A stretch of 64,000 nucleotides of DNA from Styela clava (lineage: Eukaryota > Chordata > Ascidiacea > Stolidobranchia > Styelidae). The notes under the pieces were generated by a model. It did no database searches and was not told the origin of the DNA. It was given only the letters and a program-made list of their open reading frames with translations. Location: the NCBI RefSeq assembly GCF_964204865.1, contig NC_135257.1:3100001-3164000 (forward strand), written 5' to 3'. The position numbers and the translations under genes are program-made. Shown piece by piece: positions 11,355 to 64,000 of this stretch (position 1 is the first letter of the stretch; each line of letters opens with the position of its first letter).

Positions 11355-11422
11355 CAATATTTATGCTATAAATAATAACAATCATTTATGCTATAAATGG
11401 TGACAAAGCCGACTTGAATTAA

Positions 11423-13292: not shown

Positions 13293-13303
13293 AATAATAC
13301 ATG

Positions 13304-35030: not shown

Positions 35031-37023
35031 TTGTTGGATTCCTCCATAATCAGCGTAAACGGCGATAAAATAATTGAAAATAAAACAAGACAAATAAATA
35101 AAACTTTTACAGATCCAGGGAAGCAAACAAAACCTTAAGTAAAGTTTAAAACGTACAGATTTTAGATTGAAATTTGTTGTCAAAAAAAGTGGAACGTGTT
35201 CGCTCACCCAAAAATATTGTATTTATGTTTATTCGTCTCGTAAAAGCAATATAAAAGAGTTAGTAATTATAGATACTGAAGGCGGGATGTATGCACAATA
35301 TCATACTGGCCTCATACACGGGTTAGAGTGGAGTATACGAAATGTATATATGTATATATGTGCAATATAAAGTTAAATAAAACACGCACGTACACACACA
35401 CACATACCCAGGCTTATCCATGCGAGTGAGATCCCAAGTGCTACGTCCCATGGGATGAGACAGGCATAAATTGTTATGGGATGGGACTGAAAAATATGTA
35501 ACGTAGACAAGCCTGCATGCGCGCCAATTTATCCTGTCAATATATAGGAAATTTCAACGTAATATATCTTAGACATAATGAGCATCAGCAGGACTTTGAT
35601 TTGCAGTTTGCCTTTTGTATACAAATTCTCCTAAAACTTTTTTTATCAATACATCACGATGAACTCCACAGTAGAGAGCAACGCCAGAATGGGCACGAAA
35701 GTCCAATGACAAATGACATTAAAATCTGGACGCGTATTGAAAAAAGTGATGGAGCATTGCTGCGGAAAACACGTTATTCGATCAGCGAAGCGTTGAATTA
35801 AATCCGGAGAATCGGCTTATGACATGACTTCACTAAATCTAACCCGACGAGGGCACACGTTTCCAATTACAGTATATTAAACCGAGTAAAACACATCATA
35901 GGAATCAGACCCAATGCATCATATCGACTACTCAATTTGGCTAACATCCGCGGGATCGGATCTGAGATGAAAGAAAGCAACCCACACCTTTCAAATTTCG
36001 AAGCCTTACAGAATGAAACTATAGTCGCATGATAAAAGTTAACAACGCTGATCAACTGGTAGCAAAGAAAATAAAGCTTTTTGGTGGGGGGGGGGGGGGG
36101 GGGGGGGGGGCGTAGAAATCAAACAAAAAAGCATCACCACTATTACGACAATGAAAAACTGTGATTATTTGACGATGATAGTTGTAGCTGATATTCGGAG
36201 AGCCGGTGAAGCACCTGTAGCGAAGAGGAAGGGTGAGTGGCAAGCGGGCACAATTTTCTGTGTACAAAATGTTGCACCGAAAAAAATCTTTGATCACAAA
36301 AATTGAAATCCAGCTAAAATTTTAGTTAGTCGAATAGCCCAGTCAGAAAAATATATTGAGTACAATACAAATGAGACGTTTTCAAGTATATATGAATGCC
36401 ATACCATCACGGGCACAGCTTGATTATACGTCAATTGGTCGCATTGATTTATCTAAGTCGATTCAATGACCGATAAAGGCTATGCAGATATTTGCTGAAT
36501 TTTATATTCCACAAAAATACAGTGTAAATATTGGAGATATATCAAATTAATTCAGTAGCTTGACCTACATTACTTATGCGACAACACTTGGAACATTCCA
36601 TACGCAAACATGTTCAAGATAACCTACTTTACTGTAAATGTACACAAAGTAAATGTATGCGCATGTTGAGAGTTGCATCCAGACTTCCTGAAGTAAAATA
36701 GATACTCTATTCATATTTTATCCAAAATACAATTTTACATTGATTGCATATTTACTCGGTCGATGATGCGCTCAGCATCCACGAAAAAATTTATTATGTC
36801 ATGCTTGATTGAAGGTGCTGTGACAACGCAATATCGATATTTCATTGGCCCACATTCAGTTCAACCTTCACAAGTGCAACTTTCTTACAGCACCATAAGA
36901 GAAAAAATTTCCAAGGCATTCACAGACCCCTTGTCCCTGAATTAAAACAGAGTCCATTTTGCGTATGCACGCAGTTCGAATGAGCAAGCTTCAGCGAGTT
37001 ACAGGAAGACAGATCTTGTGGAA
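35031..37023. other. Region upstream of the giant gene, no gene seen
   Basis: Contains a short CA microsatellite near 35385-35405 and an uninterrupted run of 25 G at 36086-36110. The promoter of the downstream gene must lie here or just before it; no TATA box is clear. No exon was recognised. Confidence 0.4.
36086..36110 (+). repeat. Homopolymer run of 25 G
   Basis: Uninterrupted guanines in an otherwise AT-rich region; capable of G-quadruplex formation. Its length is likely unreliable in an assembly. Confidence 0.85.
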
Positions 37024-37155
37024 ATGGTGTTCCACAACTTCTCTGTCACAATAAGTGTCGTTATCGCCATTGCAGTGTTGGTGACATTTATCGACAAATG
37101 TGATGGACAAACTAGATCTCGCGTTAGACCTGCTCAGCCTGTATATCAGCATCAG
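37024..37155 (+). other. Exon 1 of the giant gene: signal peptide
   Basis: This 44-codon exon runs from ATG to a GTAAGT donor, phase 0. It encodes a short N-region, the hydrophobic core VVIAIAVLVTF and a polar c-region ending DKCDG, followed by the mature start QTRSRVRPAQPVYQHQ. An upstream in-frame GTG at 37018 is not a plausible start. Confidence 0.85.
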
Positions 37156-40100
37156 GTAAGTGCTGGCGTGGCGATTAAAGGAAAATACGGGTATTTAAAG
37201 CTATTTGGTTCGAGCTCTTATTTCAATAGAGTCATAAGTTCTTCAGTTCAATAGTTCATTTGCACTTTATGTATTGTGTAAAAGACTAAAAATTTAAATA
37301 TATAATTGTAAAAATTAGGCATAAATACAGTAGCATTCCATATATACTGTATTAACGGAAAGTTTTCTACGACAGAGAATTCCAGGATCGTATAATCCTA
37401 CTTCTCAGAGGCAACGTGGTCGTACGCCCTGGATGAATGAAGTCGATGTTTCATTACGAAGAATCGACACAGATGTTAAGCTCATGAAGTCAACCTTATC
37501 TTCTTTGGAAAGTAGATTGTCTATAACATTGTCAGCAACAATTTCAAGAAGGCTTAGTGGTAAATATTTGTTATAATTCTCCTGCAAATAGGCGAGCGAG
37601 TTTCAAGCTTTACGATACTTTGAAATGCGAAGTTACCATGAACTTTTGGTAAATTGACGGACTTTTTTTACCGACAGGGTGCAATTGTAATGCACAAAGT
37701 TGTGCTAGTATTCCACCAAACCTATCAATTAGAGAAACAAAAATATAGCGTTTTATGGGAATTTGGATCTTGGCGGTTATTTTGTAGGGATTTTTATGAA
37801 CCTCGTTTTTGAGAGGTTTGTTTCCAGTCGCAGCTGAGCGCAGTGAACTGAGAGAACGTTTTGATTTTCAATTGCTAATGGGCTTTTCTTCTGGCATAAC
37901 CCGGTAAAAATAATTATGCTTTTTGACAGCCCATTTTTATGCATACGTATGCATCGTCGCGCATTACCAGGATCAGTACGCTTCAATTTTCATGTTGAGA
38001 AGCTCCGCGATAAGCTATTTTCCTAAATGTGTAACTACAAGCTAGTACTCTACTTGTGAACGTTGCTCGAGGTACACTGGTTTGTATCGGTTTGGGGGCA
38101 ATATCTGAAAAAGCGTTTCAAAATTATTGGTATTGCAAAACCATCAGTATCAAAATCATGGATCCTATAAATGGGACTCTCAGATCTGGAATACTTGGAT
38201 GGACTTTTATTATCTGAACGATGTAGAAAATTTTTCTTCAGCTTATATTTACCGTATATTCGTATGCGTTGAAATGAAATACCTTAAATTCGGTTTATTG
38301 CTCTCAGATGATCTGTTTATTAAGTGATATGAACACACGTGCACTGTCAGCATGACGTGAAACTAGAGAAAGGCATGTGCATCGGCTGGAGTCCTCGAAT
38401 ACGTTTGCAACTGACGAGCATCTGCGCTACGCTCGTTCAAATTTATATTTGGGGGAAATGCCCCTAATCGCCCATTTCAACGGTAGAGCCCTTCAAATCA
38501 TGAAACTCTCCGGCGACGTAGTATGCTCTATGATCAAGCATTTTATCGGTTTTCCTCTTACACATCATGATAAATATCGAACATCTGAATGTATAGCTTG
38601 GAACCGCAACAAAAAACTTGCTTATGAAAGGAAACGGCGAATATATTGAATTGTACCTCAAAACGCACGTGTTTTGCAGGAATACTTGATATCACGAATG
38701 ATCATGAAACTCGAATTAAAAAAACAGAAGACAAACTCAATCGTATTGAACGAGAAGTGGAGATGATGAAACATGGCAATTCGGAAGTTTTGAGAACTAA
38801 CGGTATGTTCGTAACTACTATTAAAGTAAACTAAGAGTATCGGTTAAATTGCGATGATTTGAGGACGAATGTCCAAGGATCCTCATGTGCACTGTTAATA
38901 TTTTTAAGTAAAAGGCGACAACTCGCTCATGCTACAATGAATAATGACTAGACCATATTGGATCCAGGAATCAGGGGTCAGATGTTCAGATCTCAAATGC
39001 AATTTTCAAATGATGCAAAATTCTCGGTACTCTAGCACTGATTTTCGTTTCGATGGTTCAACGTTTTCAAGAATGTCTCAAATATTGGCTTTTGCAAATT
39101 CAGCCAATAAATTTATGAATAATCATTTATCATAATAAGAACAAAACGCTGGTTTTGTAAATACATTGACATTCTCTCTCAAAATGACAGTATACAAAAT
39201 CTGAAACATCTGTATTACAGCAAGAGTATTCAGAGACAATGGCAACCGGCGATCGTTTGTACTTTACAACACGTTTCTATTACTCGAAATTTTTTCATCC
39301 AATTTATTATATAATTGCTTTCAACAGATGATGATTTGTATATAAGCAAGGATAACACTGGTAGTGATATATTAGAAATTTCAAAAAGCCTTGGGTATTT
39401 GAAAGAAAGTGTTTCCATCCATTCCAGTCTTATAAAGAAATGTTTGAATGATTCGGAATCACAGAATTTCAGGTGAGAAAGCGAATAAAAATTGCTTATG
39501 TTTTATTTTCAGAATTTATTGTTCTCTTCCCTAAGAGATTTTGCACAGACGTATTACCATGGTAGCATTATTTATGATATGTTTAAAAAGGGTTTTTGAT
39601 TTGTGCTACCATTTTCACTAGTGTCTAAATATCGTTTTACTTCTTTCAAACAGGATGCAAGCCATTCAATCAAAAATTCAGCAAATTGAAGATGACAATT
39701 TCGAAAAAACAACAACCCATTGCTGTGAAAACTTTGTTCGAAATGTCTCAGAAATAGAAATTAAACTTCTGCACCGAATCTCCAACGTAGAAAACGCCTC
39801 AATGGTATTTTTACATCTCATCAATTTACCTTGTGACTTTGGGGCACGCTATAATTATTCGAATAAAATTGTCCCAATATTTGCTATATGCTTTCTACTT
39901 TGACTATTTCCGTCACATACATCATTAAGATATTTATTGAGATAATATCTGAGAAGAAACTTTCGTCTGAAAGTAAATTGACCCTTACCGCTAGTTTGTC
40001 TCAAGCTCTCACGTACCAGCCTTCTAATAACAAACTACGAAGAAAAATGTCATCATGTACTGCCAATTTTACTTAGCTCCAAATAATGATGCTCGTTTCT

Positions 40101-43100
40101 GTGTTGGCACGTGTAGGTTGAAAATCGTATATTTCATATTTTATCCTTTCTGCTTCGAGGTTAGTTCTTATCAAATCATCCATAAAATCTACCAAAAATT
40201 AATATAACTCATTGTAGTTGCAACTAAAAAATTGTCTGATGTCCATTTCAAATAAATAACCGATATTTAGATCAACCACAACCATCCGTATCTAAAAGAT
40301 TTGATAAATTGCAGGTCCTAGATAAAAACACCAAACTACTCGCCGGCACATTACAAAGCCTGATTAAATCAAACGAAAGCGCAGGAGAGCAAAAAGAATA
40401 CGATTATGGAACGTTGGATGACGATATCAGTGATCAACTCATCCACTTTGAAATATTCGATGGAGACTATCCACTGACAGAGGGTGCCAATCTCAATAGA
40501 TCTCAAGTTGCGCGAATAGTATCAAATTCTGAGATTGAAAATGCTTTGTTGGAGTTTGGCAACAAGCTTCATAGCTTTGAAGAAAGATTAAAAGTACTAA
40601 ATCAATCTGAGAGTACTAGCGAACTTGATGTTAGAATGGAGAACGAAGAATTGAACATTTCTATTCATGAATTATCTAAGCGGCTTGATTTAATATTCTC
40701 TCGCGTTGAAATCCAAGAAAGCTCACTCGAAGATATCACTGAAGTTCAAAGCAATAGGTCTCAGGAGGTGGAAAATGTTAATGTTCGATTCGATGTCGTC
40801 CGCTCTGCGTTTCAGAGAGCTAATGCAGAACTAGTTGGAGGAATAAGATCGAATCGTCGAATACTAGAAGCTGCTGTGAAATCTATACGAGAGAAGACTC
40901 AAGATGATCGTCGTCAGAATTCTGCCATAATAAATCTTCGACGTAGAATAAGAAATATAGAAGGTGTGGTATTCAATATGACTTCCATGAATAGTTGCTT
41001 CTTCCATATCAGTTGATGCTTATACATAGCCTTGCTCGGATGAGAGAGCAAAATTCCTTGTTGAAATCTGTTTCAAAATCTCAGTTTTAACCGGATTTTG
41101 GCAATACATGCACAAAGTCCACGACGGTCATCTATGACAAACGCCAGACATTTTTATATCTCGAATGAGATAGGATCGCAATCTGGTTAAATTCATAAAA
41201 TTTGTGATGAATATAATAAACTTCGAATTAGAGTGTCAAAATCAAAATATTTTATATTGCAGTTTGAACTTTCTCTCACTTTCAGGTCTTAAGTTGAGAA
41301 ATGCTGTCAATGAAGAAGATTTCCAACAATTTAATAAAAGCACAAACGAGAGGATTTCACATCTGGAGAATGAAATTGAATTATTCAAGCAAGAAAAACT
41401 GATAAATCCATTAGACACCAATGCACTGACAAAGAATGACGTGAAATTGTTGATTGGTGATGCAATGTTCGGAATAAATAAGCAAGTCAAAAACAATGTT
41501 GGACTGTTAGCAAATGTTGCAAACACATCTCGTCATATTGCGTATCTGGAGTCGGAGGTATTGTAGTTTAGGAACAAAATTATATCATCTTTTGAAAATG
41601 TGAACAGACATACACGCATATTTGTTTATCATTCATTAAACAAGAAAATATTAATGAAAATATGATCACACTAAATTACAGGAAGCCAGAAATTTTCAAA
41701 GGGGCGAGTTCTGAAATTTCTATTTGTCAAGTTAGATCGAGACCGCTATAGCAGGTCCGACCGAACGCCAGAAAACGTGTGTTTCCATGAGTCATGAGGG
41801 TTTGAAAAGCGTTTCGAGTACCTAAAAATTGCTATGTATGATACAGAAAGATGCTTTTTTACATTTTAAAGGGGTGGGGGCCAACCCCCAAAACCACCCT
41901 CTGGCTATGCCCCTGCTAAACTATACGCAAGAATATTTGTAAAAATTGGAAAATATATTATCAGAATGATGTTAATTACCACGTCCATACTACCTCAGGA
42001 TGTAACATATTTCTTTAACTCCACCTTTGTATTACATTCCCTCCTATGGATAATGGGGCAAATAGCTGTGACATCCATCTAAAACCACTTTATTCGCCTT
42101 ACAATGAAACTCAAACTGCAAGCTTGTATTCTATTTTACCCCTGCGATGAAACACTTCGGACGATAATTATTACCTTTTCTTCTTGTCAATGAGCAAGAC
42201 GGCAATGAGCAAGATATTTTACCCCTTGCCTGAAATTACCAAAGAAGAATTTCATATTTTATGAGAACTATCCATTTAATTCAGATACGAACTTTTTCTC
42301 ACGAACTTCCATCAATAATCAGATTGAAGGAAGACGTGGCAAGCACAATAAATTTACGAAATTTGGTTCTGAGAAATTCTGGTGATGTCACAAAAGTACA
42401 CGACTCATTTGATGAAATCAAGACAACAGTGACAGAGAGTAAACGGAAATTGGATGAAATTGACCTGGATGTCCAAGAACTGCGATCTTTAACAAGTGAT
42501 ATAACGTAAGCAATCCATATAAAGATACTTTGAATACTATATCTCGATTTATTTTTCGATACTTTAATTCACAGGGCATCCGGAATTCCATTCCCACTTA
42601 TTAGATTTGTAGTGATGAGTAAGTAAGAATCATGGATCTTTTAAAATTCGAAATTGCTTTACCGTTATCCACAATTGAATTTACTTGAAGTAGTACAACC
42701 ACGTACAACCAATAGCTGCAATAAAACTAGCGTGCTTCCTAAACAAAGTACGGATTAGTGTACTGAGCACATGGCTGACTAACTTTTGAAAAGTATTTAT
42801 TATTCATTGGCTGATTATGGTCATACCCGTTGCATGCACATATTAAAAATAGTTATGTATTTTCTTATTTGACTGCATAGATTCAGACAAGAAAATTCTC
42901 AAGAAAAACTGACAGAGATATCTGACACTCTGAGAGATACTCAAAAGCAAATAAGACTTTATGCACTCACCACTAAAAGAAATATGACAGATATAATGTA
43001 CGGAATACAGAGGATTCGATCGAAAGCTGAAGAATATGATAGTAAAAATACAGTACTCAACGAAAAAACTAACGCTTTGAGTACTGCGCTTGATGATTTC

Positions 43101-46100
43101 AAGCGGGATTCAGAAATAGAAAAAGCAAAAAGTCAAAGATCGCAACTTGAAATAACTAACAGAGTAGATGGCTTAAAATTATCGCTGTTTGGATTAAAAG
43201 AATCGACCAATACATGGAAAACCAAAACAGAAAATGAAATTTCTATTCTTCAGTATACAGCTGAAGACAGCAAAGCATCGATAACTGAAGCAGTCAATAA
43301 TATTCTTGATTTGACGACAGATGTTAATGTTATCAAGCAACATCGTATACAAGAATTGGAAGAAAAGAACTTAATGAAGCAAAAGCTTGAGTTTGTAGAA
43401 GGTAAATTAATTCGTAAGAAACTTTGTGAATAATTTCAATAATTGAATATTCTGCATACGAACAATTTTAGACCATTCAAAAGTTCGTAATTTTAAATTG
43501 TTTCTCGTGGTCGAGCAAATGGAAATTTATCGAGATATTACGGTAGTTATAATTGGTATTGACATAACAGTTGTTTGAGTTAACAAAGTCGCTAAAACAG
43601 GAATGGTAACAGTAACTAAAATTCAAGTTTTAACTATCCCACAGTTTTTATATCTTAAACGTAGTAACTGTGCCTGTGTGAACGAATGAGGTTTTATAAA
43701 TTTATTCCCTACAATCTGAGTCTAAACTGTAATCTTGAAACGATTGATCTATGTGAAGACAACGTTTCATCAATATGTACAAATTAAATATCCATACAAT
43801 GTTGATGGCGTTTAATTCTTTATTTTGTTAAATAATCATTTTCGAGGTTTTGTGTTATATTTATGCCCTATACCCTATATTGTTTCGTTGTTCATGATGT
43901 TGTATACCATTTCTTAGACAGTGTCAATCAACAAAAGCGGACTATGGAGGAGACAAAGATGGAAATTCGAAGAGCCGGACATTTCACAACTACCTTAGAG
44001 GAAAAGCTGAGAATGCTGGAAACAAAATTTAATGTTGTTGATCAGGCAGTAGAGAGCACAAGAATGATGGTCGTGAGACAAGTAATGTAATTTTATACCT
44101 ATGAAATCAAAAGTTCAGTCATAAAATATTTGTGTTTTTGTACAGATTAATTCAACCAACCAAAGTAGTGTACATTTATTGATATACCTAATATTACATG
44201 TAGAACATTCAATTGGTAGCTGATTAAAATCTGTTCTTTACGTTCTTTACAATTTTGTTTTTATTGGATATTTAGAGACAGATTTCGAACAGAACACGAC
44301 TATTCACATCAGAAAACAAAGAAAAGTTAGCATCTGTAGAACAGAAAATGCAACATATTTCATCCTCCATACAACAAATAAAAAACAATGTTAATAACCA
44401 TCAGATAGAACTGGATGGAATCGTGATAAATTCAGCAAATCAGAGCTCATCGATCCGTTTGCTTAAACAACAATTCAAATATGAATTTATGGGTAATAAA
44501 AACCACTTACTTTGCTGCCTTCTTGGTAATTAAATCATACAATATGCCAGATAAATAATATGAATATAATATAGTAGAACTGATTCACAATGATTTGGTA
44601 ATAAATATTCTGCCATTTTCACTCTTATGCCAGCATGTAACCAATACACAAGGTTTTCTGAATCTTCGCATATCTAATTTGCATGAATTTTTCTGCCACT
44701 CACAGGAAATTATTTACACAAGTTTAGGTGTATAGTGTAAGTGAAAGTTTATTTTGATTTCCTCCAAAAAAGGAAGCTCTAGAAGTATGTGCACCAAGAT
44801 GGCGCACAATCTGAACATAGTATGTGTACCAGGTTAGGGTTCAGGTTGTGCGCCATCTTAATGCACATACTTCTGGAGCGTCAAAAAAAGACATACACAA
44901 AACAATGAACACACAAAAGTTTGTGAAAATCAGGAAACTGGCAAAACCTTTAATAAATTTTAAGACATGCCGAAATACATGTGCCAGTTTACCCATCTCA
45001 CACACACAAAACATTTATAAAGAAAGATAAAAAAATATGAATGTGTATCATTCGGGCATCTAACTTGTGTTACATAAACACATACTCGGTTCAACTTGGG
45101 TATCTCTAGGACATCCATATTTCTGGTTGGGAAATGCCATTAATATTTACTTTATTTTTCATGTGTATTCATTGGAATCATATTTGTAGCACTAGAATTG
45201 TAGGTGTAATGATATTTTTGTCAATAATACATTGTTGTATTTACATACATCAGCATCTAATGCAACAAGACAACTTTTCTACAATGTAGCTGAACTGAAG
45301 CAGGCAATTGAGAGTTTGAAATACGAAATCAATGCAACGCAGGCTTTATACACCGCGAACAAGTTGCAGCAACGTGTTTTTGCTATAGGTTTATCTGATA
45401 TTGAATCAAGGTAAATAAATGTTCTTTTACACATTGAATACAGAAATGACTAATATTACCTTCATTTAGCCTATTATACCTACGTAGGATATTGGATACA
45501 TATGAAGTTTTTATGAGTGTTTTAGATCTTGGTAAGTTCCAATTGTTCAATTTCAATAATAACTAATTTTCTCCAGTGGCTCACTGGCATTGGCCACCAC
45601 TACCAGTCATCCCATTTCAAAGACGTCCCCCATACAAACAAGATAGCACCTTGGTCAAATTCTGAAATAGCCATAAATATCATATAAAAAAAAATCAAAC
45701 AAATACTTGTATTTTGATTACGCATATATATGCTAAAAATATAGTGACCTTTTTTTTTATAATGTTACAGAGTAGTTAAATGTGAAAATGACAACCAGCA
45801 ACAAAAATCTCAGCTTGATAGCGTAGAATCTGATTTGGAGAATAAAAATGCAGCCCAACGTTCTAACGTAGAAAAATTGTATGAAATAGAACATTCCTTA
45901 CTGGAAACTAAAGAGGTGATTTATTTTTAATCAGTATATGTCCTAGACAACATACTTTATCATTATATTTTTGAAAATTCAACTGTCTGAATTTCACTTT
46001 AAGTATATATCAATTACAACATATACCTCCAGTTTCCTGCCAAATTTAAGTATGATTATAGACCACTAAATTACATATATAGGCAGCCTATATGCTGATC

Positions 46101-52100: not shown

Positions 52101-55100
52101 ATGACACCATAATAAGCAATTTTGATTAGCTAATAATCATTAGCTGGTCGAGGAAATCCGCGTTTAGAAATGTCAAAATATAATTTCTGGAAAGACCGGA
52201 CCCAAATAATTTTGAAGTTTTGTATACCCTGTGTTTTTTTGACATTACGCCGGAGCTGTTTTATGAAAGTTAATTTATGGTGTTGCATTCACTACTTATG
52301 ATAATTAACATTAATAACATTTCTTTTTTTCAATTTATTGGAAATTATGATATAAATTATTATAATATATTTTACAGATAATCAACATATCAAATATTTT
52401 GGAGAACTACAATAAGACTATTGCAAATAATCGAAGGTATGGGTTGCATCTATATATCTTTTATTCTCACACGTATGCCACTACAACTAGGCACATAATG
52501 AACAATAGAAAACATTTATTTCACAGAGGGTTCTATATTCATTGTAGATAAAAAAAGGAATTTGCTAAGTGTATTTTTTCTTTTAAGAATGTCAATGCTA
52601 CAAGAAGCCACACAAAAAGTCGAATTGGACGAACTGAAGACCAATTTGCATATTATTACACAAAATATACTTAATATCACGGAGGATCTAAACCTAGTAA
52701 ATCTTTCTGATAAATCTGACAAATTAAAAATAAAGGTACTTTGTATATTTGTGTACTTTTATGAATATAACTTATAAATATGGCAATAGTCATGACTATT
52801 ATTTTGTTTGTAGATATTGCAAAGAATCATATCAAACATGACTAAAAATACCCAAGACAATGATTTGGAGATTGGTGTGGTAAAATCAAAGGTAAGTTTT
52901 CATACCTTACAGACTCATAACTCAAAGGCAGCAACAGACTGCCTCACTTATTTCCCTCGTCGATGTAGTTTTTCCTTAATTACTGGTTGGCTATGGTCTG
53001 ACATGCGAAGGGAGAGGTAAACTGTATAGATCAGTGGTTCCCAAACTTTTTCAAAAAAATTCCACGACGGACCCCTTTCAATTTTTTTAATGATTCGCGG
53101 CCCTATGCACTTGAATAAAACATTAAAAGATCACAACAAAAAAATAAATGCGTCGTACGGTATAGTGAAAATCCTTCTCTTCACCTGTGTTTATCACAAT
53201 AAACTAACATCACAATTTTAAAAGACATTTTGAAATAAATTTTACAGAGCGAAAAACGTAAAAATATATGCATACCGTTACCGTGTGTCAAAGGCTAAAT
53301 TTGACAGCTAAAAACTAAACGTAGTGCCTCTCTGACTACTCTCTACTTAACGTCAGTCAGTAGTTTATTATTCACCAAAATGAAAATGCACTTACTGTGA
53401 ACATGAATTAAAAAAGTTTGAAATGACATTTCACGGTGAAGGGTTGCGCAAAAACCAAAGTTGGTTAACGCTACCTACCGCTCACTACAAAAGCGTAAAA
53501 CAGCGTTTCGAAGCGGACTGGCATACTTTATAATTATAAACTACCTACTGTAACTCCATCCTATACCAACAGACGCGCTAAGGCAGGGTAAGCTACACCT
53601 CGGCAGTTAGTTAACTTATAGTGGCAGCAATTGAACTTTGTCTGTGATGTCATAGATCCGCTGCTTTGTGACATCACAATGGGACACATGATCGAAACAA
53701 AAAGTGAACGATCAGTGATTGTGGGGCTCAAAAGGCGTCAAATTTGCAAATTTAAGCACTTAATATTTGCATTATTTCACTATGAGGCATAAAACAGATT
53801 TCTTTCGCGGACCTTCCGAAAGTGCTTCGCGGACCCCAAAAGGTCCGCGGACCCTAGTTTGGGAACCACTGGTATAGATGGATGTCAATCTGTCTTATTA
53901 TCCTATTTTTTTAAACTGTGTGACGCAAGAGATACTCAGGTGTGCTGCAGAGCTTTTTGGAATATTAGATTTGTATTACACATAGGCATGCATGCAATGG
54001 GCAAGCTTGTGAGACTTGAGTATCCAGTATTTAATAAGACTGGTAATATTAGTGCATTTGCCTTATTGTTGTAGTAAAGGTGATTGTCATGTTATAATTA
54101 TATTGTTATGTCATAATGTATTTGTGAACAAAATGTCTACCTTCCACCATGTTGACTTGCGCTCTTAGTTAGGCTAACAGGAAAGCAAGTTTCAACAAGT
54201 CTATTTGCTTACAAATTATATTTGATCATCCATGCAAAAGCCATCAAAATAATCTAGCCATTTGCTTCTTCATGGCTCTGAAAAACGGATTATCTGCTAT
54301 GGCTGAAATTAAAAGCAAAAAATGGAGCGACGGAACCTCATTTCAATTGCTTCTTAAAACAGGCACACACATCGCATTAACATTTGCGGAATAATTTGTT
54401 TAAAACGACCTTCATTTTTTTACAAATGTGCTGCAAATTTTTTCATTTGCTCAGTGCGCCGCGAGCAAAAAAAGTTTGAGAAACACTGGTCTATACTATA
54501 GTAGACAAGAGTTTATAACAAGAATGTAATAATGTATTCAGCACATATATAAATAATTGGCTTGCAATCTTCTAAGCATTATATGCTGACCTACCACAGA
54601 ATTAATGGCGCGTTTCTTTGTTCATCATTATTTCAATGATATTTATACATACAGATAACAAATGTAGAAAAAATGGCAATGTACCTCAATCAAAAAATTG
54701 CAAATTTGTCATATGCAACAGACCAAGAATTGAATGTCACTAAAAAGACCTTGGCAAAACTAAAACCCAGCATAAATGAAATGAAAAATGTGCTTGGTAA
54801 TGAGATAATGAAGGTGTTGGCATTCATGAATGAATCTCAGAAGTTGATAAATACAAGGTAAGGCTTTGATATGAATATTCAAATACAATAGATGGCTATT
54901 GTAAATACAAAAACACATTTAGATGTGTTTGGCTCAATGTGCATGAGTTAATCCTACTGTTGCTAACATTTTTGTAAAATAGGGAAAATATTAGTGAGTA
55001 ATTTTTTACATGTCAGCTGTTTTTACAAGACTCATAAATTCCGAAATTTTTATGCAACAGGTTCTCTATGAGCAATCTTGCTTTTTCACGCCTGGTAAAT

Positions 55101-58100
55101 GAATCAAAGATTGTCAGTATCAAAATAGGTGAACTCTTCAAACAAAGTAAATATACCATTGAAGATGTGAAAAATTTACAACTACATGGCATTTCAGCTA
55201 TGGATTCATTGAATGTATGTAATTTTGTTACATCTGTAACATCCATGTTCTCAACGAACTATGCATTGAGCAAAGTTTTCAAATGTTTTAGTACTTTATA
55301 TGACTCAGGGATGAAATATAATTTTTATTGATATATTGTGAAGTGCCCGCAATAACAATATTATAAAATAACCTAAAATTCATTTGCTTTATTTGCAGCT
55401 AAGATAATGAATTTTTATCCTTCTCAAATTTCAGATCTCATTTTGTCAATTTTTAAGACATAGTTAGTAATCACTGCAGTATTAATTTTTTTTTTTTGTG
55501 GATGTTTTTTTTTTATATATTTTAAATTGAATTTCTTTTTTATTAGTGAATGAATACCATATTGAATACTGTATGTCAAAACGAATTAAATAATATCTAG
55601 TTTTGAGCTTTCGTTAATAATATTCAATTCTGTAAACTTTTAGCTAATGAAAGAAAATGTATCAAATATTTCAAACAACACTGTCAATTTGAGACTGCTG
55701 ATGGATAATATGTCATCACTGATGAGTAGAAAACAAGAAAATCAAACTAACAAACTAACTGATTTCTTGGAATTGTATTCAATGAATTCGTATGAAATCT
55801 TTGCAACATTATCAAAGCATCAACTACAAATTTTGAATGTTGTTAACACAACAGAAAATATATCTCATAACTTGGAATATTTGGAACAGAACAACAAAGA
55901 TGCTGACTCAAAGGTTGTTGTCATTGTTAAAATAAATTTCATATAGTATAGTACTTGAGATTCTAAACAAAAGTCATAATTATTAGTAACATGGTCTGCA
56001 GAAACTTGCACAAGTTGCATGACATGTCATATTGCTCCAAATTTGTTTGTTCAAAGCGCTTTTTTTCCAGATCGAAAATATTGTGGAAAAATTGAAACAT
56101 ACTGAAAGAAATGTCTCATATGTGTTTGAAGAAATGTTCAATACTCATTCTCACATGGACTCTGTGCATCTGAATATGAATCATTCTCTGGACGAATTAA
56201 AAAAATTGACTGAAAATGAATTGGCACGTCTTCAGGATAGCCATAATTCAATATATCAAAAGTTGAATATTTTGAACATTACTGACAAACATTTGGAACA
56301 AAAGTATGTATGTGTAATTAAATTAAATTAATTGAAATTAAATTAAAAGTCAAAATTTCTAAAGGAAAAACAATCAGGCTAGGATCCAATCAGATAGTTC
56401 TGTGATGCATTCATAGGTGGCGTCAAATATTGCTAGGCCATATGTGAAACAAAATACGCGAGCCCAGTTTGAGTAGAGATGAGGTCAATAACTGAAAATT
56501 TAGGTTTTGTAATAGTAAATGGGTGCTCCAGGAGTATGTGTACCAATATGGAGGTAACTAATTTTGTTCGGATATTTTACCTACATCAAGTTGTGTGAAG
56601 GGACTGAAAGCTATGGGCAAGGGGATATTCACTTGGCTAACACAGACAGTCAGTCCCTCGTAATAGAACTAAAATAAGGAAAATCTTGGCCTAAATAAAA
56701 TTATGTTTTTTACATAGGTCATGCTTGCAACCTATAATAATATAACCTAATACAAGTGTTCATAAATGATGATAAAATTGACTTATTACTATTTAGATTT
56801 ATTGTTGTGTGTCCCAAGTATCTTATCTCTGTTATAATTATGCTATGTGCATTTTTACATATTTTAAGTAACCTCATTTTATCAGGATATTGGATCAGGA
56901 TAATAGATCAATATATATTTCTGGGTTGCTCAATGTATCCAGCAGACTTTTCTCAGATAAACTAAATGCTGTACTACAAAAAGCTACAAATAATTCCTTT
57001 GATATAAAAGTTTTAAAAGAATATAGTGGAGTGAATATGTTGCACACTAAGGTAAATAACGTCAATTTATGAACATTTGATAAATAGAAAAAGGTGAGTG
57101 ATGTTTTGACCAAAACCTCCAAATTCAGAGCTGCATGCAATTGTCACCAATGACTATATTCTGTACCGTAAAACTATGAGTTACAATTTTACTACTTTAT
57201 TTTATTAAATGAAGATAAACATTTTTATCTACTGATGATTATTTGATCATACTATACTTTCACATGGGGAAGATTATATTTGTAAGCGTATGTATGTTAG
57301 CTGAAATTAATACAGTTTCATTCAAATATTTTTTGTTCAAATTTATTGGCATTCAAACTTTTTTTATGGTACGTCAATTTCAATTTAACTTTGTACAAAT
57401 CACTTGATATAAATCACATTAATATAAATAGTTGGTTTTAATGAGTAATAAATGAAAAATATAAATTAGATATGTTTATGCTGTACAAGTTTGACAGTCC
57501 ACACACAGAATATTAAGCATTTTTCTAAATGTATTTCATAGTTGGCTTTTTTTTTACTTTATTTGAATTTACTGAAAATGTTTCTGTTTTGGAAGCTATT
57601 TTCTTTCACAAATATTTCATAGTGAGCTGAAGAATCTGCAATACACTATTCAAGGATATATTTCCTTCTTTCGTGGATTTGAAGAAGTTTTTATTTGTTC
57701 ATGTTTTAGCTGGTGAACAATTCCACATTACTTCTATCACAAAAGCTGAAAACATTGAATCAGAACATAAGTGATTTGGCTGAATCATGGAAAAGTCAAC
57801 ACGATGTTCAAACAGAGAAAATTCATATTTTTCAAAACATATCTGTGATGAACCAGCATCAAGTTGAATATTGTCTTGCATATATTGATAAAAGTAATCA
57901 AACAGTAGAAAGTATTAATCTAAAGGTATGTATGTGTCTTAATGTCACAATTTTTGTAATATTTGTAATTATTTAGGATCAATAATTCAGTGTAATTTTG
58001 GTAAAATATTTTCATTCCCTTTTCCAACTTTTATATTATTAAACTTGACACACAAAAAAATTAAAATTTAATTACACCAAAAATTGAATTATAAATAGAA

Positions 58101-61100
58101 GGAATTATATATACCAGTATATTTTTTACAGATCGATTTTACAAATTTATAATAATTTGGACAAACCCTCAACCTTATTCAATCTCTTGATAATTAGTTA
58201 TTATTTGGATTACCATTTAGCTTAATATTAATATTTTTATATATATCACATTTTTTCCAGCAAAAACCGTTTCAACATGTTGAAAACTTTTACAACTACA
58301 CTGTTTATATTTTTACAGATAGAAAATGCAAATGAAGCTATTGACAAAAGTGAACTCAGCATCACATCTATTGCAAATAGATTAATTGATACTAGCAAAC
58401 AAATTAGTGAGATATATGAAAATCTTTTATCCAAAATTAACAATATGGCGAATGATACTAAAACTCAGTACAAGACGGTATTAAAAGAATCTTTCCAAGC
58501 AATTGAGAATTCGGAAATCAACATAAGTCAGAAGTAAGCATTTATTTGTTTCTTATCATTATAAACATTTTAGAAGATAGTTTGGCCTGCCCAACCTTTT
58601 TCGTCTCATGGGCCACTTTCACGTGACAAAATTCGTTGCGGGCCACTAACGTTTGTACCAAACTTCGATACCAGCCATGTGCTGATTTCGTTAGAATTCA
58701 CATAATACCTAAATGGCAAGTTTATTGACATAAAATCAATCAAGTTAATGAATAATTAATACTTATCGATTTTAATCCGGTACTTAAGCCTATATAACAT
58801 AGTAAAAATTTAAAAAGGTCGCTTAGTAACTTTATTGGGCGGGCCGCAAAAAATAGTCCAGCAGTCTGCAGGCTGGGCAGCCATGGTTTAAGCCTTTCTT
58901 TTACATACCCACCACAGAAAATTGTTGTTTAACATTTCCGTTTTAGTTATAATGACACTTCAGTTTAAGCTAGGTTAAAATTGATCTTTTGAGGTAAATA
59001 AGCTAAAAAAACTTTTATTCATAACATTTGGTAGTAATTACAAGCCCATATCTCTGTTTAGATTACATGATTACAACAATGAGCAAGTGCTTTCAGTGGG
59101 TCTTCTTCATGATATTCTACATGCAATAGAACAAAACAACTCTGACATTATAAAAAGCATTGAAAATCTGCAGCATACAAAAGAACTTCTTGAACATGAG
59201 TCAAATGTAAGATTTGTTAGTTTTTGCGAAAACTTAGTGTTAAACTAAAGTGAGGAATCATAGGGATAGAATCATATGATAAACCATGGCCTCTCGGCTG
59301 GTTACCAGTTCATGCAAGGTATAATTCACTAGTTGATGTTTCGTATGCATGGACTTTGGGGGTGAAGGTAGCTCTAACTTATCAGCAGTTATTTGATCCA
59401 CTCTATAAACCACGTCAGGAGTCCAGTGCAATCTTCTCACCCATTTTTTGCCCATTTATTATCTAGATCTTTGGTTTTCAATTTTAGGCTAGTGTGTTTG
59501 TAAAAATAAAGCAAAACCTTGCAACCTTATATTTAAAAAAAAATTGAATCACAGAAATTATTGTCATAACTAGGTCCCGTTATTTCAAGTGTTTCCAATT
59601 TACAGCACATAACAAATTCACCAACCGACATGATAAAAGCAGTTAAATGATTTGCAACTGATGTATACACATCAGTGGTGTCTAATACAGTGCTAATTTT
59701 CATTGTATGTATACATCAGTTGAATATTCATTTAACTTATGTATACAAAGGATGAAAAGTGGCCCTGTGTTTGGCACCACTGATAGTTTGGTACTGATTT
59801 ATAGACCAATGGTTGAAAGTCTCTTTGCTAGATAATTTATGTTGCCTAATCTATTCCAGTATGATTTTTTGTCTTGTTGGAAACACAAGCTTTGTTCTTG
59901 AGGTGTTCTCGCACTGAATAATTTTACAATGTACTGTTTTTCAACCTAGATAAAATGGGATGAATTGGGCATGTTCTTTTCACCTGTTGTTTTCTAGATC
60001 CACTGACTTGAATTGAATCAAGTTCTATCAGTGAATTGCATGTATGCTCTCTCTCAAATACTTTTTCTACTTCAGTTTGAGAGCTTAGGACCTTGGATCA
60101 GACGAACGTGTATATACATATACTCAATATACCAGTATATATATATATATATAACTATATTTCTTATACAGAGAGTTCGAAATGCATTACTTAATGTAAC
60201 AAGTATTGTTACACCATTACAAAGAGAAGTGGAAATACTGCAGACATCTTTGTTGGGAACTCACACCAGTCACAATAATTCTTTTATAAATATAAAGAAT
60301 GAGACTGTGCAGAATGCAGCAAATATTGAAAATATTTTGGAGAAACTTACAAATGATCTGTATCCCACTAACCTTACTGAAAAGGTTAATATGCTGGTTA
60401 AAGATCAGATAAAAATGTTAGAGGAGCAAATGGCATTGGGTATTAAGGTATGCTAAACTTACTAAGGCTGTTTTTCTGTGCTGACATTCAATCTAATATT
60501 AATTTCAGAAATTTTTCAATGTGTAGTTTATACATTGATGTAGGTAAAAAAAGTATTGTATCATACAGAAGATATATGTATCAAATTGTTATTCAGAAAT
60601 TTGTTTTCATACCCAGGTATCATATGTATCAGAAAAACTCAAGAAAACTGATGAAGATTTTGCTGACAAATTCATGAAATTATCTTTGAGGTATGTTATT
60701 TTGTGTATTCAATTCAAAATAATACATTGAGTACATATTTGAAATATGTTCCCATTCTTGTATCTAAAAAAAAATGAATTCTGTTTAGAATTACTGAAAA
60801 TGACAACTCATTGTCTCCCATGAAAGAAAAAATTAATCAAACGGTAAAGTCTTTTGATGATGAAATCTTTGATTTGAGATTCAAGATGTCTAACTATTCG
60901 GAAAGTGTCTCATTGTTGACTCAATATAACTCATCCACAGCAATAAGAGTGAAGGTAAGTAAAAGTAAATATACAACATGGTGTTACACGACTATGCTAC
61001 CAAAGTAATAAAACATAATTATATTCTATAAGTCTTAAAAATATTCAATTTTTCAATTCAATTTAATTCTTCAATTCAAAGTCCTTAGAAGAAGCTATCA

Positions 61101-64000
61101 AAGTGATTGAGAAGAATCTGACATCATTGAAATTTCAATTCGAAAAAACCAACGAAATTTTGTTGCCGAAGTTTAACAATCAAACAACGAAATTGATGGA
61201 GTTGGAGAATATTTGTAAACGTGGCAACACGAACATTATCAAAACTATAGAACAGATTGGAAACTCAAGCATTTTCATTTCAAATTTCACTGAATCTACA
61301 TTAAACATCATAGAACAAAATAAGGAATTAACAAAAAATCTGGAAACGAAGGTGAGCATGGAAAAAATATAGAAGATGAAAGGTGTGATTTTGTCAAGAC
61401 GAGCAAAATTTGCAAAAACTCGAAAAATGAATTTCTGATATATTTATCGTAAAATTTCAATTCTCTATATTAATTTGAAATGCTAATTTTGTGAAATAAT
61501 TTAGAAAATGAAATTATGTATTTCGATGGTTATTATTTTTAATTTGCAAATTGCGACAAGAATTTGTTTTACTTTTCTAGATAGGAATTATATTTGATAC
61601 CATGAAGATCCAAGATCAAGTAATCGATGAAAATGTTGTGAAAATATCAGAGCTATATGGATTGAATAACAAAACTTTGTCAAATGTTACATCAGTGATC
61701 AAACGTTTAATGAAATCAGCAAAACAATCTCAAATTTCTCATATGCTACATATGATGGATTTGTTCAACACCTCAGAAAGGGACATGAATGAAAGGTTTG
61801 TTGCAAAATGATGAATTTTGTACAGATACTTTTATTCAAATACCTCTTAGTTTCCACAATGCTTTAGTGCTAATTCAGCAAGTTGCCACTTCGTTTTTCT
61901 AACTGACAATAGGAAATGTTGAAACTCTTCAACTTTCCCATTCTTTCTGGACTTTATATGTCTTTCGAAAAATTGTTTTTAGCTTACTAAAATGTTTTTC
62001 CATTTGCAAGAATACTCAGTTCAAATAAATCCATGCAACATCTGAATGATGAATTAAATGGAATTCAACAAAGATTAGGATATCTCATGGATCGAATTTT
62101 AAAATATGAAACAAATGTTGAAAAAATACAGAGAGTCAATATAACAATGTTTTCAGAGCAAACGGTTTGTTTTATTTCAAGTAGACTTATTTTTTAGATT
62201 GTTGTTTTCGGCCTTTTCATCCTATCTCATGTGAGCATTTAGAAGTTGATTTACGAATATTAGATTAGCTGAATAAATTGTAATACTCATTTATTTTGAA
62301 TGAATGCTTGGATGACTTTATTACACCACTGTATTGAACAAATGAATCCAAATGCACTTTATTTATGATGCACTTCTTTATGATAAAAAACAATATTGGA
62401 TAGACATAGAAAACTCTATTGGCTTAAATCGCATTTGTGCAATATGCATCTATAAAAAGAATACTTAAAAAACTAATACATCATAGTATTAGAATGTCAC
62501 ATATGATTGCATGAAGACGAGTAAGAATTGATCATCATTACTTTCTACAGGAAATAAGAAATTTTGTTTCAAATTTATCTATGGAGATGACTGCAATAGC
62601 AAAAGAAATTAATGAAATGAAAAATTCATTGTTTGAGCAAATTTCTGAGCAGAACACGTCTATCTCAGAAGTTCGAAATGCAATCATATTGCACGATAAG
62701 AGAATCGATATTGTTCAAAACGACTCAGGCAATGCATTCTCAGTTTTGTCGAATATTACTTCAGGAGTTGTTGCTGCAAATATAAAACAGAAAGAGGAAA
62801 TGGGGATTGTTGATAAGAAGGTACAGCATGTTGATTTTTGAACTTTTTTTGTTTAATAATGATAATAATTTAAAGTGAATATTTTTTGTTTCAATTGATA
62901 CCTGCCAGGCAATATATATTTTACCCCATTATCTCATATATAACTCATGGTAACATTCTGTATATCAATTTTTTCCTTTTTTATCAATCATGTTTCCAAG
63001 CAATTGATAATCTGTTACTTTTGACATTTGTTTATATGCTTTTAGATGGTGATGTTGCAAGGTGATCTTGAAAGTATTAATGTTGCTATTACTTCATGTT
63101 CTCAATCAGTACTGGACAATCAAGAAAATATAAATAATGTTAATACATCAATCAATTCAAATATCAGAAAGCTACAGAAAATGCTTATAATCTCATATAA
63201 AGATTCACAAAGAGATGCAATTGAAAGTCTGAATAAGACCAAAATTAATTTTGATGAAAGGTTAGAAAAATTTACTACCAAGACTTAGTACTTTCACAAC
63301 ATACAATGATCATTAAACTGATGTTCCAATTATACTGAAATATATTTATAAACATGCAACATTAAAGCTATTAGGTTGTTTCTATTTTTTATTGGAAATT
63401 TCAAAAGCAATCTTCAAGTTTCATTTAATCTATATTGTCCCTACAGTCTTTTATGTACTATGTATCAGAATAAGAATCATTCATGAAGCTAATGATTAGC
63501 ACTGCATATTTTCATTGTAAATTATTTTACAAATTTTCTATTATTGTTTTAGAATGGAAGAAATTACCCAATCTGTGTCTCATGTCGCTAAAACATCAAA
63601 CCAACTGCAAGTAAAATTTGAAAATATCACTGAACAAGTGTCAATCAATAAGATGCTTTTGAATGTTCTACACCTACAGGATTCAAACATAACAGCTGTT
63701 TTGTCTAATGAGGTCAAAATTTTCTTTCTGAATTTGTGTTTATACATTTTAACTTCTGAGTTTGTAGAAAAAAAAACAACTTCAAGAATCTTTTATCAAA
63801 TATTCAGATAACTGTGGCAATAAGAAATATAACTTCAACGATCAAGAAATTGCAAGATGAAATGACGGCAATGGATGTAATGCAACTGAAGCAAAATAAA
63901 TTTTTCACCAATTCATTACATAACCTTACAAATGAAACAATATTGAATAAACATGAAATTAAAGACATTTGGAATAAAACAACGAAAAGCAGTCTTAAAC
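37024..64000 (+). CDS. Giant secreted coiled-coil protein, 45 exons recovered (partial at right edge)
   Basis: No known family recognised. All 45 exons have GT-AG sites and consistent phases, giving 9,229 coding nt (about 3,076 residues) with no internal stop and no end in the window. The start ATG at 37024 opens a signal peptide (hydrophobic VVIAIAVLVTF, cleavage likely near KCDGQ). The rest is almost wholly polar heptad-like sequence with abundant N-glycosylation sequons (NNTV, NMT, NVS, NIT) and very few Cys, as expected for an extracellular rod. No collagen, EGF, fibrinogen or membrane segment is seen so far. From exon 19 the exons form nine three-exon cassettes of identical phase. Possible roles are matrix filament, cuticle or tunic component, or stalk of an extracellular receptor; none is supported directly. 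A C-terminal globular domain may lie beyond the window. Confidence 0.85.
44776..44879 (+). mobile_element. Intact M1 MITE (104 bp) in an intron of the giant gene
   Basis: Near-perfect inverted repeat: left arm GCTCTAGAAGTATGTGCACC then AAGATGGCGCACAA, right arm TTGTGCGCCATCTTAATGCA then CATACTTCTGGAGC. The centre is CTGAACATAGTATGTGTACC followed by AGGTTAGGGTTCAGG. Other copies lie at 47176-47278, 28008-28072, 24470-24530 and 56524-56555. Confidence 0.85.
45580..45690. other. Intronic patch of unusual composition, possible element fragment
   Basis: A GC-richer stretch with GTGGCTCACTGGCATTGGCC and CCACTACCAGTCATCCCATT in an otherwise AT-rich intron. No ends or coding frame recognised; low confidence. 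Confidence 0.25.
46515..46690. repeat. Inverted repeat of about 30 bp in an intron
   Basis: TCCAATCCAATTAGAAAAAT and TGTCACTCAA on the left pair with TTGAGTGAAATTCTCCCAAT and TAGATTGGA on the right, with a few mismatches. Probably a decayed short transposon. Confidence 0.5.
47176..47278 (+). mobile_element. Second near-intact M1 MITE in the giant gene
   Basis: Left arm GAAGTATGTGCACCAAGATG then GTGCACAACC, centre TGAACATAGTATGTGTACCA, right arm ATGTGACATCTTGGTGCACA then TACTTCAGGAGC. It has more mismatches than the copy at 44776. Confidence 0.82.
53032..53871 (+). mobile_element. Non-autonomous hAT element (840 bp) in intron 27 of the giant gene
   Basis: Ends are CAGTGGTTCCCAAACTTTTT on the left and AGTTTGGGAACCACTG on the right. 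The element is flanked by perfect 8-bp duplications GTATAGAT (53024-53031 and 53872-53879). No transposase frame. An intact TSD points to a relatively recent insertion. A separate hAT-like right end (AAAGTTTGAGAAACACTG) lies at about 54470-54488. Confidence 0.88.
56524..56555 (+). mobile_element. M1 MITE fragment
   Basis: GCTCCAGGAGTATGTGTACC followed by AATATGGAGG resembles one terminal repeat of the M1 family; the other end is missing. Confidence 0.45.
58587..58880 (+). mobile_element. hAT-like MITE remnant in a giant-gene intron
   Basis: CTGCCCAACCTTTTTCGTCT at the left and GGCTGGGCAG at the right form a short imperfect inverted repeat. The interior carries GGGCCACTTTCACG, GCGGGCCACTAACG and GGGCGGGCCGC, typical of this transposon style. 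No target duplication seen. Confidence 0.5.
59641..59782. repeat. Hairpin plus short hAT-like ends in an intron
   Basis: AGTTAAATGATTTGCAACTG continuing ATGTATAC at 59641-59668 pairs with GTATACATCAGTTGAATATT continuing CATTTAACT at 59709-59737, an almost perfect inverted repeat. Overlapping it, CAGTGGTGTC at 59673 and GGCACCACTG ending at 59782 form a second inverted pair. Confidence 0.55.

Follow-up and report, generated by a model that had tools for sequence, protein, structure and literature searches.

A probable giant secreted coiled-coil protein of the ascidian Styela clava with repeated three-exon modules and a predicted FN3-MAM-MAM-C-type lectin head

The stretch of DNA analysed here (the window) comprises 64,000 nucleotides (nt) of the genome of the ascidian Styela clava (contig NC_135257.1, G000:C9:3,100,001-3,164,000), and from position 37,024 to its end it carries, on the forward (+) strand, the first part of a gene that probably encodes one giant, Cys-poor, extracellular and N-glycosylated coiled-coil protein. 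When followed beyond the window, the computed gene model consists of 103 exons (19,461 nt) that span approximately 61.5 kb and encode 6,486 residues with one stop at the end, corresponding to a mass of approximately 736 kDa (length multiplied by 113.5 Da). The product is considered likely to be a secreted glycoprotein from a single gene, composed of a signal peptide, a parallel coiled coil of approximately 5,800 residues, an FN3 domain, a Thr/Ser linker, two MAM domains and a C-type lectin domain (CTLD), with the coil acting as an oligomeric spacer rod that presents the FN3-MAM-MAM-CTLD head. The animal sequence behind this architecture is that of one genome.

Exons were predicted on the + strand using our own splice-aware dynamic-programming finder, which combines codon log-odds with donor and acceptor splice-site matrices and was retrained on its own exons. 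As the finder permits only GT..AG introns, matching phases and open frames, the GT-AG borders, the agreement of phases and the absence of stops are imposed by it and are no evidence by themselves; the evidence comes from the controls. A first model of 160 exons was discarded, its exon penalty being too low and many of its exons tiny. With an exon penalty, the finder settled on a stable chain of 50 exons, which was then edited by hand: four tiny low-scoring exons were removed, exon 1 was restored to 37,024-37,155 by merging two pieces, the acceptor of exon 2 was placed at 37,376 and the start of exon 6 at 40,315. The resulting model within the window begins at the ATG at 37,024, comprises 45 exons (9,223 nt, 3,074 residues) separated by introns of 78-1,763 nt, and reaches base 64,000 without a stop. 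A first-pass annotation of the window had described a chain of 45 phase-consistent exons and more than 3,070 residues without a stop, and this independent model agrees with it, phase and openness being imposed by the finder.

For control scoring, a variant of the finder was employed that requires exons of at least 54 nt and accepts any ATG. The region at 37-64 kb scored 880.8 on the + strand versus -10.5 on the - strand, and the following 64-91 kb, which lie outside the window and were absent from training, scored 673.9 and -1.9, respectively. Control stretches at 8-35 kb (-8.2 and 3.7 on its two strands) and 130-157 kb (-3.9), together with all six first-order Markov simulations (-9.6 to -1.4), scored near zero, which rules out chance open reading frames as the source of the chain. 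The exons within the window are as follows (window positions).

Exon 1, 37024..37155, +, ATG; hydrophobic segment at the N-terminus, either a signal peptide or, with lower probability, a signal anchor
Exon 2, 37376..37559, +, basic Pro-containing linker and coil start; acceptor hand-set
Exon 3, 38680..38802, +, coil
Exon 4, 39328..39472, +, coil
Exon 5, 39654..39804, +, coil; holds a Cys-Cys pair
Exon 6, 40315..40963, +, coil; longest exon, 216 residues; start hand-set
Exon 7, 41286..41557, +, coil
Exon 8, 42285..42505, +, coil
Exon 9, 42887..43401, +, coil; modelled with AlphaFold2
Exon 10, 43918..44081, +, coil
Exon 11, 44276..44492, +, coil
Exon 12, 45254..45410, +, coil
Exon 13, 45771..45915, +, coil
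Exon 14, 46242..46391, +, module exon A (phase 0 to 0)
Exon 15, 47431..47648, +, module exon B (phase 0 to 2)
Exon 16, 47888..48125, +, module exon C (phase 2 to 0)
Exon 17, 48330..48423, +, read as the 5' part of an A exon that an extra intron interrupts
Exon 18, 48534..48655, +, read as the remainder of the interrupted A exon (94+122 = 216 nt)
Exon 19, 48859..49082, +, B
Exon 20, 49547..49718, +, C
Exon 21, 49968..50192, +, A; the strict 0-0-2 run begins
Exon 22, 50372..50610, +, B
Exon 23, 50832..50997, +, C
Exon 24, 51372..51791, +, A; modelled with AlphaFold2
Exon 25, 52378..52436, +, B, short
Exon 26, 52588..52735, +, C
Exon 27, 52814..52891, +, A, short
Exon 28, 54655..54857, +, B; preceded by the longest intron, 1,763 nt
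Exon 29, 55061..55214, +, C
Exon 30, 55644..55913, +, A, 270 nt
Exon 31, 56071..56303, +, B
Exon 32, 56886..57051, +, C
Exon 33, 57710..57925, +, A
Exon 34, 58319..58533, +, B, 215 nt
Exon 35, 59062..59206, +, C
Exon 36, 60172..60447, +, A
Exon 37, 60617..60690, +, B, short
Exon 38, 60789..60954, +, C
Exon 39, 61082..61351, +, A, 270 nt
Exon 40, 61581..61795, +, B, 215 nt
Exon 41, 62011..62164, +, C, 154 nt
Exon 42, 62551..62820, +, A, 270 nt
Exon 43, 63046..63260, +, B, 215 nt
Exon 44, 63553..63712, +, C
Exon 45, 63808..64000, +, A; cut by the window edge, modelled end at window-equivalent 64,062

The coil region of the whole protein (approximately residues 61-5,884; 5,825 residues, including a non-coil insert) was delimited by periodicity and exon structure. 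Its heptad power at a period of 3.5 residues is 3.31, compared with 1.03 (standard deviation, sd, 0.095) for shuffled sequences, and the corresponding values for the 3,074 residues within the window are 3.43 and 1.01 (sd 0.11). The heptad register is maintained across splice junctions: the mean cosine over 43 junctions in the window is 0.504 (0.542 inside exons), while random registers give 0.004 (sd 0.108; 0/2,000 as high) and swapped exon joins 0.027 (sd 0.11; 1/2,000 as high). Across 86 junctions of the whole gene it is 0.495, versus 0.000 (sd 0.078) for random registers, and across the 44 junctions from exon 45 onward it is 0.454. Neither the heptad periodicity nor the continuity of the register is scored directly by the finder, and both support the chain. 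An unsupervised seven-state model found hydrophobic residues at 67% of a and 64% of d positions and at 16-19% of the others. Position a is occupied by Ile (22.8%) and Leu (21.8%), position d by Leu (26.8%) and Ile (17.9%), and Asn occurs more often at d than at a. Among 144 register shifts, the stutter was the commonest type (65). Pro, Gly and Cys are scarce, with 18, 112 and 13 in the coil, respectively (14 Pro and 9 Cys in the 3,074 residues of the window), and the longest Pro-free stretch extends over 2,343 residues (2,612-4,954). The heptad-like and Cys-poor character noted in the first-pass annotation is therefore borne out.

AlphaFold2 models of single exons, made without an alignment, are helical: exon 24 showed helices at 2-101 and 104-139 (mean pLDDT 79.9, pTM 0.42) and exon 9 at 2-78 and 83-170 (pLDDT 78.0, pTM 0.44; the other four models 47-75). 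Pfam was searched with residues 1-3,074 and two pieces of 3,001-5,890, residues ~4,137-4,532 (exons 61-66) being outside the scan. In these pieces no family exceeded its cut-off, neither spectrin nor collagen matched up to E 0.1, and no EMI or C1q domain was reported. The remaining weak hits were not accepted: Tropomyosin (3.4e-4, 20.6 bits versus a cut-off of 38.6) is regarded as a generic coil match, and SCO1-SenC and two further weak matches are far under their cut-offs. A relative of the coil in the PDB was also rejected, as the four phmmer matches of residues 1-552 to DrrA chains (best 4.1e-4) are weak and coil-like and are not taken as homology.

An addition to the earlier account is that a large part of the coil is made up of diverged copies of a module of three exons, often ~213 residues long. 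From exon 14 onward, many exons form triplets of A (phase 0 to 0), B (0 to 2) and C (2 to 0) exons. The longest run within the window in which the phase of an exon equals that of the exon three places on is 24, a length reached by none of 20,000 permutations (maximum 13) and none of 20,000 first-order Markov series (maximum 21); for the whole coil the run is 33, with a maximum of 26 in 20,000 permutations. The whole coil contains 18 ABC triplets, one of which depends on a hand edit of exons 52-53, versus a permutation mean of 5.5 and a maximum of 14 (20,000 permutations). Exon lengths recur as well: 10 of 22 exons of the B phase type are exactly 215 nt (exon 52 hand-set), 7 of 26 A exons are exactly 270 nt, and C exons in the window are unusually even in length (0/20,000 permutations as even). 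The edit in question concerns a likely GC-AG intron between exons 52 and 53 (window-equivalent 68009-68223 / 68550-68703, L002), proposed because the module lengths of 215 and 154 nt predict one. Where the GT-only finder had taken a poor donor, the GC donor after exon 52 makes these exons 215 and 154 nt in frame; donors of the full model are otherwise all GT (101 GT and 1 GC).

The exon sequences retain traces of the same classes. A label test on A and B junctions, based on heptad register and sequence, gave 0.462 versus 0 (sd 0.054), and in four windows free of splice-site residues only 0 or 1 of 5,000 permutations were as high. When exons of the same class were aligned start to start, offset 0 beat all offsets up to 35 residues in 8/8 chosen, overlapping sets. 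In exon-to-exon blastp (E <0.05, small database), 16 of 18 pairs were of the same phase class, compared with 0.21 of random pairs. The closest are exons 57/59 (48% identity, 2.5e-26) and 56/58 (36%, 5.5e-15), such that exons 56-57 and 58-59 look like a recent duplicate pair, while eight A-type exons share only 12-20% identity with exon 39. When 41 held-out exons, of which 16 are A exons, were ranked by a profile of five A exons from the window, the top 8 places all went to A exons, and the best 7 exceeded the highest score of reversed sequences. The repetition of 0-0-2 triplets, often of identical length (270, 215 nt), suggests that the rod grew by internal duplication.

Examination of 120 kb downstream of the window (in an assembly of 376.6 Mb and 379 contigs) showed that coil exons of the same character run on to window-equivalent 90,974. 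Past this point, non-coil exons surfaced when a composition-neutral codon model was used, and they encode the predicted C-terminal head. The head is a partly hand-made chain: its borders were set from the raw sequence, the starts at 91,081 and 94,514 were placed by eye, and additional exons proposed in one run or another (e.g. 93,190-, 93,876-, 94,416-, 95,738-, 96,147-, 97,059- and 98,160-) were dropped as they interrupt domains. The dropped exon at 93,876 resembles an open reading frame at 123,051 and is possibly a dispersed repeat. Under the chosen borders, phases agree at every junction of the head, which is composed as follows (window-equivalent positions).

FN3 domain (Pfam fn3), 91,081-91,256 and 91,465-91,591, +
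Thr/Ser-rich linker, 91,910-92,032, +
MAM1 and MAM2 (Pfam MAM), exons 1-4 of 8, 92,515-92,652; 92,817-92,903; 93,506-93,675; 94,514-94,651, +
MAM1 and MAM2 (Pfam MAM), exons 5-8 of 8, 95,325-95,455; 95,850-95,934; 96,349-96,433; 96,661-96,804, +
C-type lectin domain (Pfam Lectin_C), 97,246-97,391; 97,968-98,053; 98,324-98,495, +

A stop codon follows the lectin domain, with an AATAAA ~70 nt further. All three domain types were recognised by their Pfam profiles: MAM in two stretches (PF00629; 9.9e-84 for the protein), Lectin_C over profile positions 2-106 of 107 (PF00059; 1.1e-19, 71.6 bits versus a cut-off of 22.6) and fn3 (PF00041; 2.9e-11, 43.8 bits versus 25). The best PDB relative of MAM2 is the MAM domain of MDGA1 (2.3e-41), and PDB relatives of the CTLD include lectin domains of the mannose receptor family, tetranectin and collectin-11. 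These domains suggest that the head binds proteins or glycans. C-type lectins canonically bind Ca2+ and sugar through an EPN or QPD motif plus WND. The latter was read by eye in the CTLD (NRNWNDISC). The expectation that the gene extends past the window to a C-terminal domain thus proved correct. That the protein belongs to no recognisable family stands for the scanned pieces of the coil and not for the head, with its FN3, MAM and Lectin_C domains. The first-pass annotation had also proposed a filament component or a very long receptor stalk. The presence of an FN3-MAM-MAM-CTLD head favours a stalk presenting a binding head, for which a C-terminal membrane span is absent.

As a query against its own genome, exon 6, on which the finding of a single copy of the coil is based, found only itself (4/4 candidates scored). 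The MAM-MAM-CTLD portion recovered 11/11 of its own exons. It also matched further MAM loci and further lectin domains, several of each, but the 94 matches listed included no second locus with both MAM and lectin (92/284 candidates scored, so that copies that are weaker or went unscored could be missed). Dozens of MAM-like matches lie within ~110 kb at G000:C9 6.36-6.47 Mb, which would seem to be one large MAM-array gene or a cluster of genes.

N-glycosylation sequons (N-X-S/T) are enriched as the first-pass annotation had stated, with 95 in the window versus 49.6 (sd 6.1) in shuffled sequences (reversed motif 47 versus 48.8) and 195 in the whole chain versus 103.3 (sd 8.9) in block shuffles (reversed motif 99). 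The Asn of a sequon occupies a core a or d position in 9/189 cases, compared with 93/446 for other Asn (Fisher p = 5.9e-8), a pattern consistent with what selection for surface glycans would leave. Besides the domains, this enrichment together with the avoidance of the core is the main sequence evidence that the coil is extracellular.

Residues 5-23, encoded by exon 1, form the sole 19-residue window of strong hydrophobicity, and a hydrophobicity scan of the whole chain found no other candidate membrane span, the C-terminal end included, which indicates secretion or, at most, anchoring by the N-terminus. The signal-peptide exon of the first-pass annotation is supported in so far as this segment is concerned; cleavage is inferred, and an N-terminal anchor is possible. 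The main rival explanation is accordingly a type II membrane receptor, an extreme form of CD23 or langerin, in which the N-terminal segment would remain uncleaved and a giant coiled-coil stalk would hold the lectin head at a great distance from the cell surface. A CTLD in last place behind a coiled-coil stalk, as predicted here, is usual in type II C-type lectin receptors, and the n-region of the segment has no Lys or Arg while basic residues are found on its C-terminal side, for which reason an uncleaved anchor may be envisaged. However, such an anchor would leave only ~4-6 residues in the cytoplasm, the length of the segment is that of a signal peptide, a plausible cleavage region (between CDG and Q, judged by eye) comes after it, and the chain offers no other candidate membrane span; this explanation is unlikely. 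A string of folded helical bundles resembling spectrin, compact or elastic instead of a stiff rod, appears distinctly improbable. The usual module of ~213 residues is near twice a spectrin repeat, and AlphaFold2 introduces breaks between helices of ~80-100 residues. On the other hand, no repeat family, spectrin included, attained its Pfam cut-off in the scanned coil, the predicted helices (36-100 residues) are longer than a spectrin helix (~30 residues), Pro and Gly occur very seldom, and the stutter predominates among the register shifts as in continuous coiled coils; spectrin repeats were rejected on the first two of these grounds. That the model joins two or more adjacent genes, namely a coil gene and a separate FN3-MAM-MAM-CTLD gene or several coil genes, is highly improbable. 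Splicing is predicted, phase agreement is imposed by the finder, and several coil exons near the head (82-84) score below those of the middle of the coil; yet no intron of the full model is longer than 1,763 nt, the junction from coil to FN3 is in phase, the heptad register is kept over junctions inside and outside the window, and the chain has no second strongly hydrophobic stretch and hence no second obvious signal peptide.

Other observations weigh against a secreted, module-built rod with a lectin head, or against parts of it. The borders of exons are predictions, some of them hand-set, especially in the head, and short or weak exons are possibly wrong (e.g. 25, 27, 37, 61, 67, 69, 76 and 80-85). 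The rod is not perfectly continuous, as a Pro-containing non-coil insert occurs at residues ~5,422-5,585 (exons 81-83), and the AlphaFold2 models cover single exons without an alignment (pTM 0.42-0.44). With regard to the modules, the first 13 exons fall outside the A-B-C pattern, and total module length is not significantly constant (1,923/20,000 pairings as even). C junctions are as similar to B junctions (-0.411) as they are among themselves (-0.420), and most windows, not all, stand out from heptad-shifted controls, with up to 58/400 shifts as high by substitution score and up to 168/400 by hydrophobic pattern. The reversed control of the A profile reached 14.4 bits, the B profile failed to single out held-out B exons, and the C profile did so weakly. 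In the lectin domain, neither EPN nor QPD was seen by eye at the expected place, which makes ordinary calcium-dependent sugar binding uncertain; the CTLD assignment stands, since not every member of the superfamily carries these motifs. The lack of Lys and Arg in the n-region belongs with these points.

For the secreted glycoprotein, the following mechanism may be proposed. The chain of exons, its domains, heptads and modules and the excess of sequons are results of computation; secretion instead of anchoring, oligomeric state, orientation, rod length and binding function are what we infer from the above. Chains would pair along the coil to give an oligomer, probably a trimer because the a and d cores are similarly rich in Ile and Leu. 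The paired chains may form a stiff, sugar-coated rod with a nominal length of ~0.8 micrometre (0.1485 nm per residue for ~5,360 residues of fairly continuous coil) that carries several FN3-MAM-MAM-CTLD heads at one end. By binding multivalently, such a long spacer could cross-link or tether targets outside the cell (cells, microbes or components of the matrix, tunic or mucus). The rod would have been lengthened by repeated tandem duplication of the three-exon module, of which copies can be added without breaking the frame or the coil given the 0-0-2 phases and the conserved heptad register. Tentatively, and with less than even confidence, it can be suggested that this is the longest coiled coil yet described, extracellular and ~0.8 micrometre long. 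On this view, the protein would be a giant multivalent lectin rod, the number of copies of a self-compatible three-exon module would determine how long it is, and in tunicates it may act as a structural strut in the tunic or the mucous feeding net. If true, an animal secretes a single chain with a coil nearly twice that of giantin, raising questions on its folding, pairing and export. The exon triplets would represent a route to a longer coil by duplication with reading frame and heptad register kept, and the MAM-MAM-lectin head would suggest that the closest relatives of vertebrates possess a molecule for long-reach adhesion or defence.

Several features were observed in and around the gene. 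A short dispersed repeat, 90-97% identical and partly inverted, is present at window positions 44779-44879, 47178-47278 and 28007-28072, the first two copies being located in introns of the giant gene, and a run of 25 G (36086-36110) precedes the start codon by ~0.9 kb. Approximately 20 kb downstream of the gene and on the same strand, an open reading frame encodes a YTH domain (L007:5534-6208; 1.4e-50). In the upstream part of the window, positions 1-8000 contain pieces of a voltage-gated cation channel on the + strand (two exons scanned, Ion_trans PF00520) that is Nav-like. One of its pores reads TFEGW where vertebrate Nav has TFKGW, which we take to suggest a DEEA filter of the Nav2/BSC1 type. 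A direct repeat of 578 bp (10794-11370 and 12732-13308) is 99.1% identical between its copies, and a stop-to-stop open frame of 344 codons on the - strand (13307-14338) has no Pfam match up to E 0.001. A 347-bp satellite is present in 10.9 tandem copies at 18230-22051 and in 3.1 copies, with the consensus seemingly in the opposite orientation, at 22122-23184; TTAGGCACTT-like 12-mers are found at the edges (18230-23184). A WD40 exon of the PROPPIN/WIPI type lies on the - strand at 25289-26017 (6.9e-73). Fusion of cellulose synthase and GH6 is a tunicate trait, and GH6 (PF01341) was found above its cut-off once, on the same contig as the giant gene, and in 0/14 control genomes. An open reading frame resembling cellulose synthase (by eye, QRSRW; L031:6233-7054, C9 ~16.18 Mb) is situated upstream of the GH6 exon (L031:8890-9171), an arrangement that supports a tunicate host.

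With respect to the literature, extracellular examples given in a proteome survey of coiled coils (PMC1322226) are adhesion factors, surface receptors, apolipoproteins, fibrinogen-like factors, laminins and cartilage matrix proteins. Tunicate collectins are mentioned in PMC514892, and the word MAM does not appear in the part of that source available. No description of a giant secreted or tunicate coiled-coil lectin of this architecture was found among the open-access matches listed, which is weak evidence, and this protein was not found among those listed for longer or exon-duplicated coiled coils.

In its overall layout, the predicted protein is a coiled-coil-stalked lectin carried to an extreme. 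Collectins, tetranectin, CD23 and langerin likewise consist of an oligomerising helical coil followed by a C-terminal CTLD, but the coils of coiled-coil-stalked lectins measure tens to a few hundred residues, compared with ~5,800 here, and these four lack the FN3 and MAM domains that are both present in this protein. Collectins, moreover, have a collagen-like Gly-X-Y region before the coil and CTLD, and none was found in the scanned coil. MAM and FN3 also occur in one chain in MDGA1 and RPTP-mu/kappa, which in contrast are short, membrane-attached and without coiled coil or CTLD. Laminins and EMILIN/multimerin are similarly secreted, with coiled-coil rods and terminal binding domains; their marker domains were not reported in the parts scanned, and the domain set and module-built rod differ here. 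The spectrin-repeat giants (nesprin, plakin) are built of three-helix repeats, whereas the scanned coil gave no spectrin match. Golgins possess a cytosolic coil and a C-terminal membrane span. The latter is not matched here, where the sole strongly hydrophobic window is N-terminal and sequons are enriched. Giantin, a Golgi tether, shares the very long coiled coil; with 3,056 residues in human, it is the longest such structure identified according to a 2016 review (PMC5082667). The coil region described here is ~1.9 times as long, an approximate comparison because the 5,825-residue region is not derived from a coiled-coil predictor and includes the insert, and it differs from giantin (PMC5082667) in being rich in sequons and in ending in adhesion domains.

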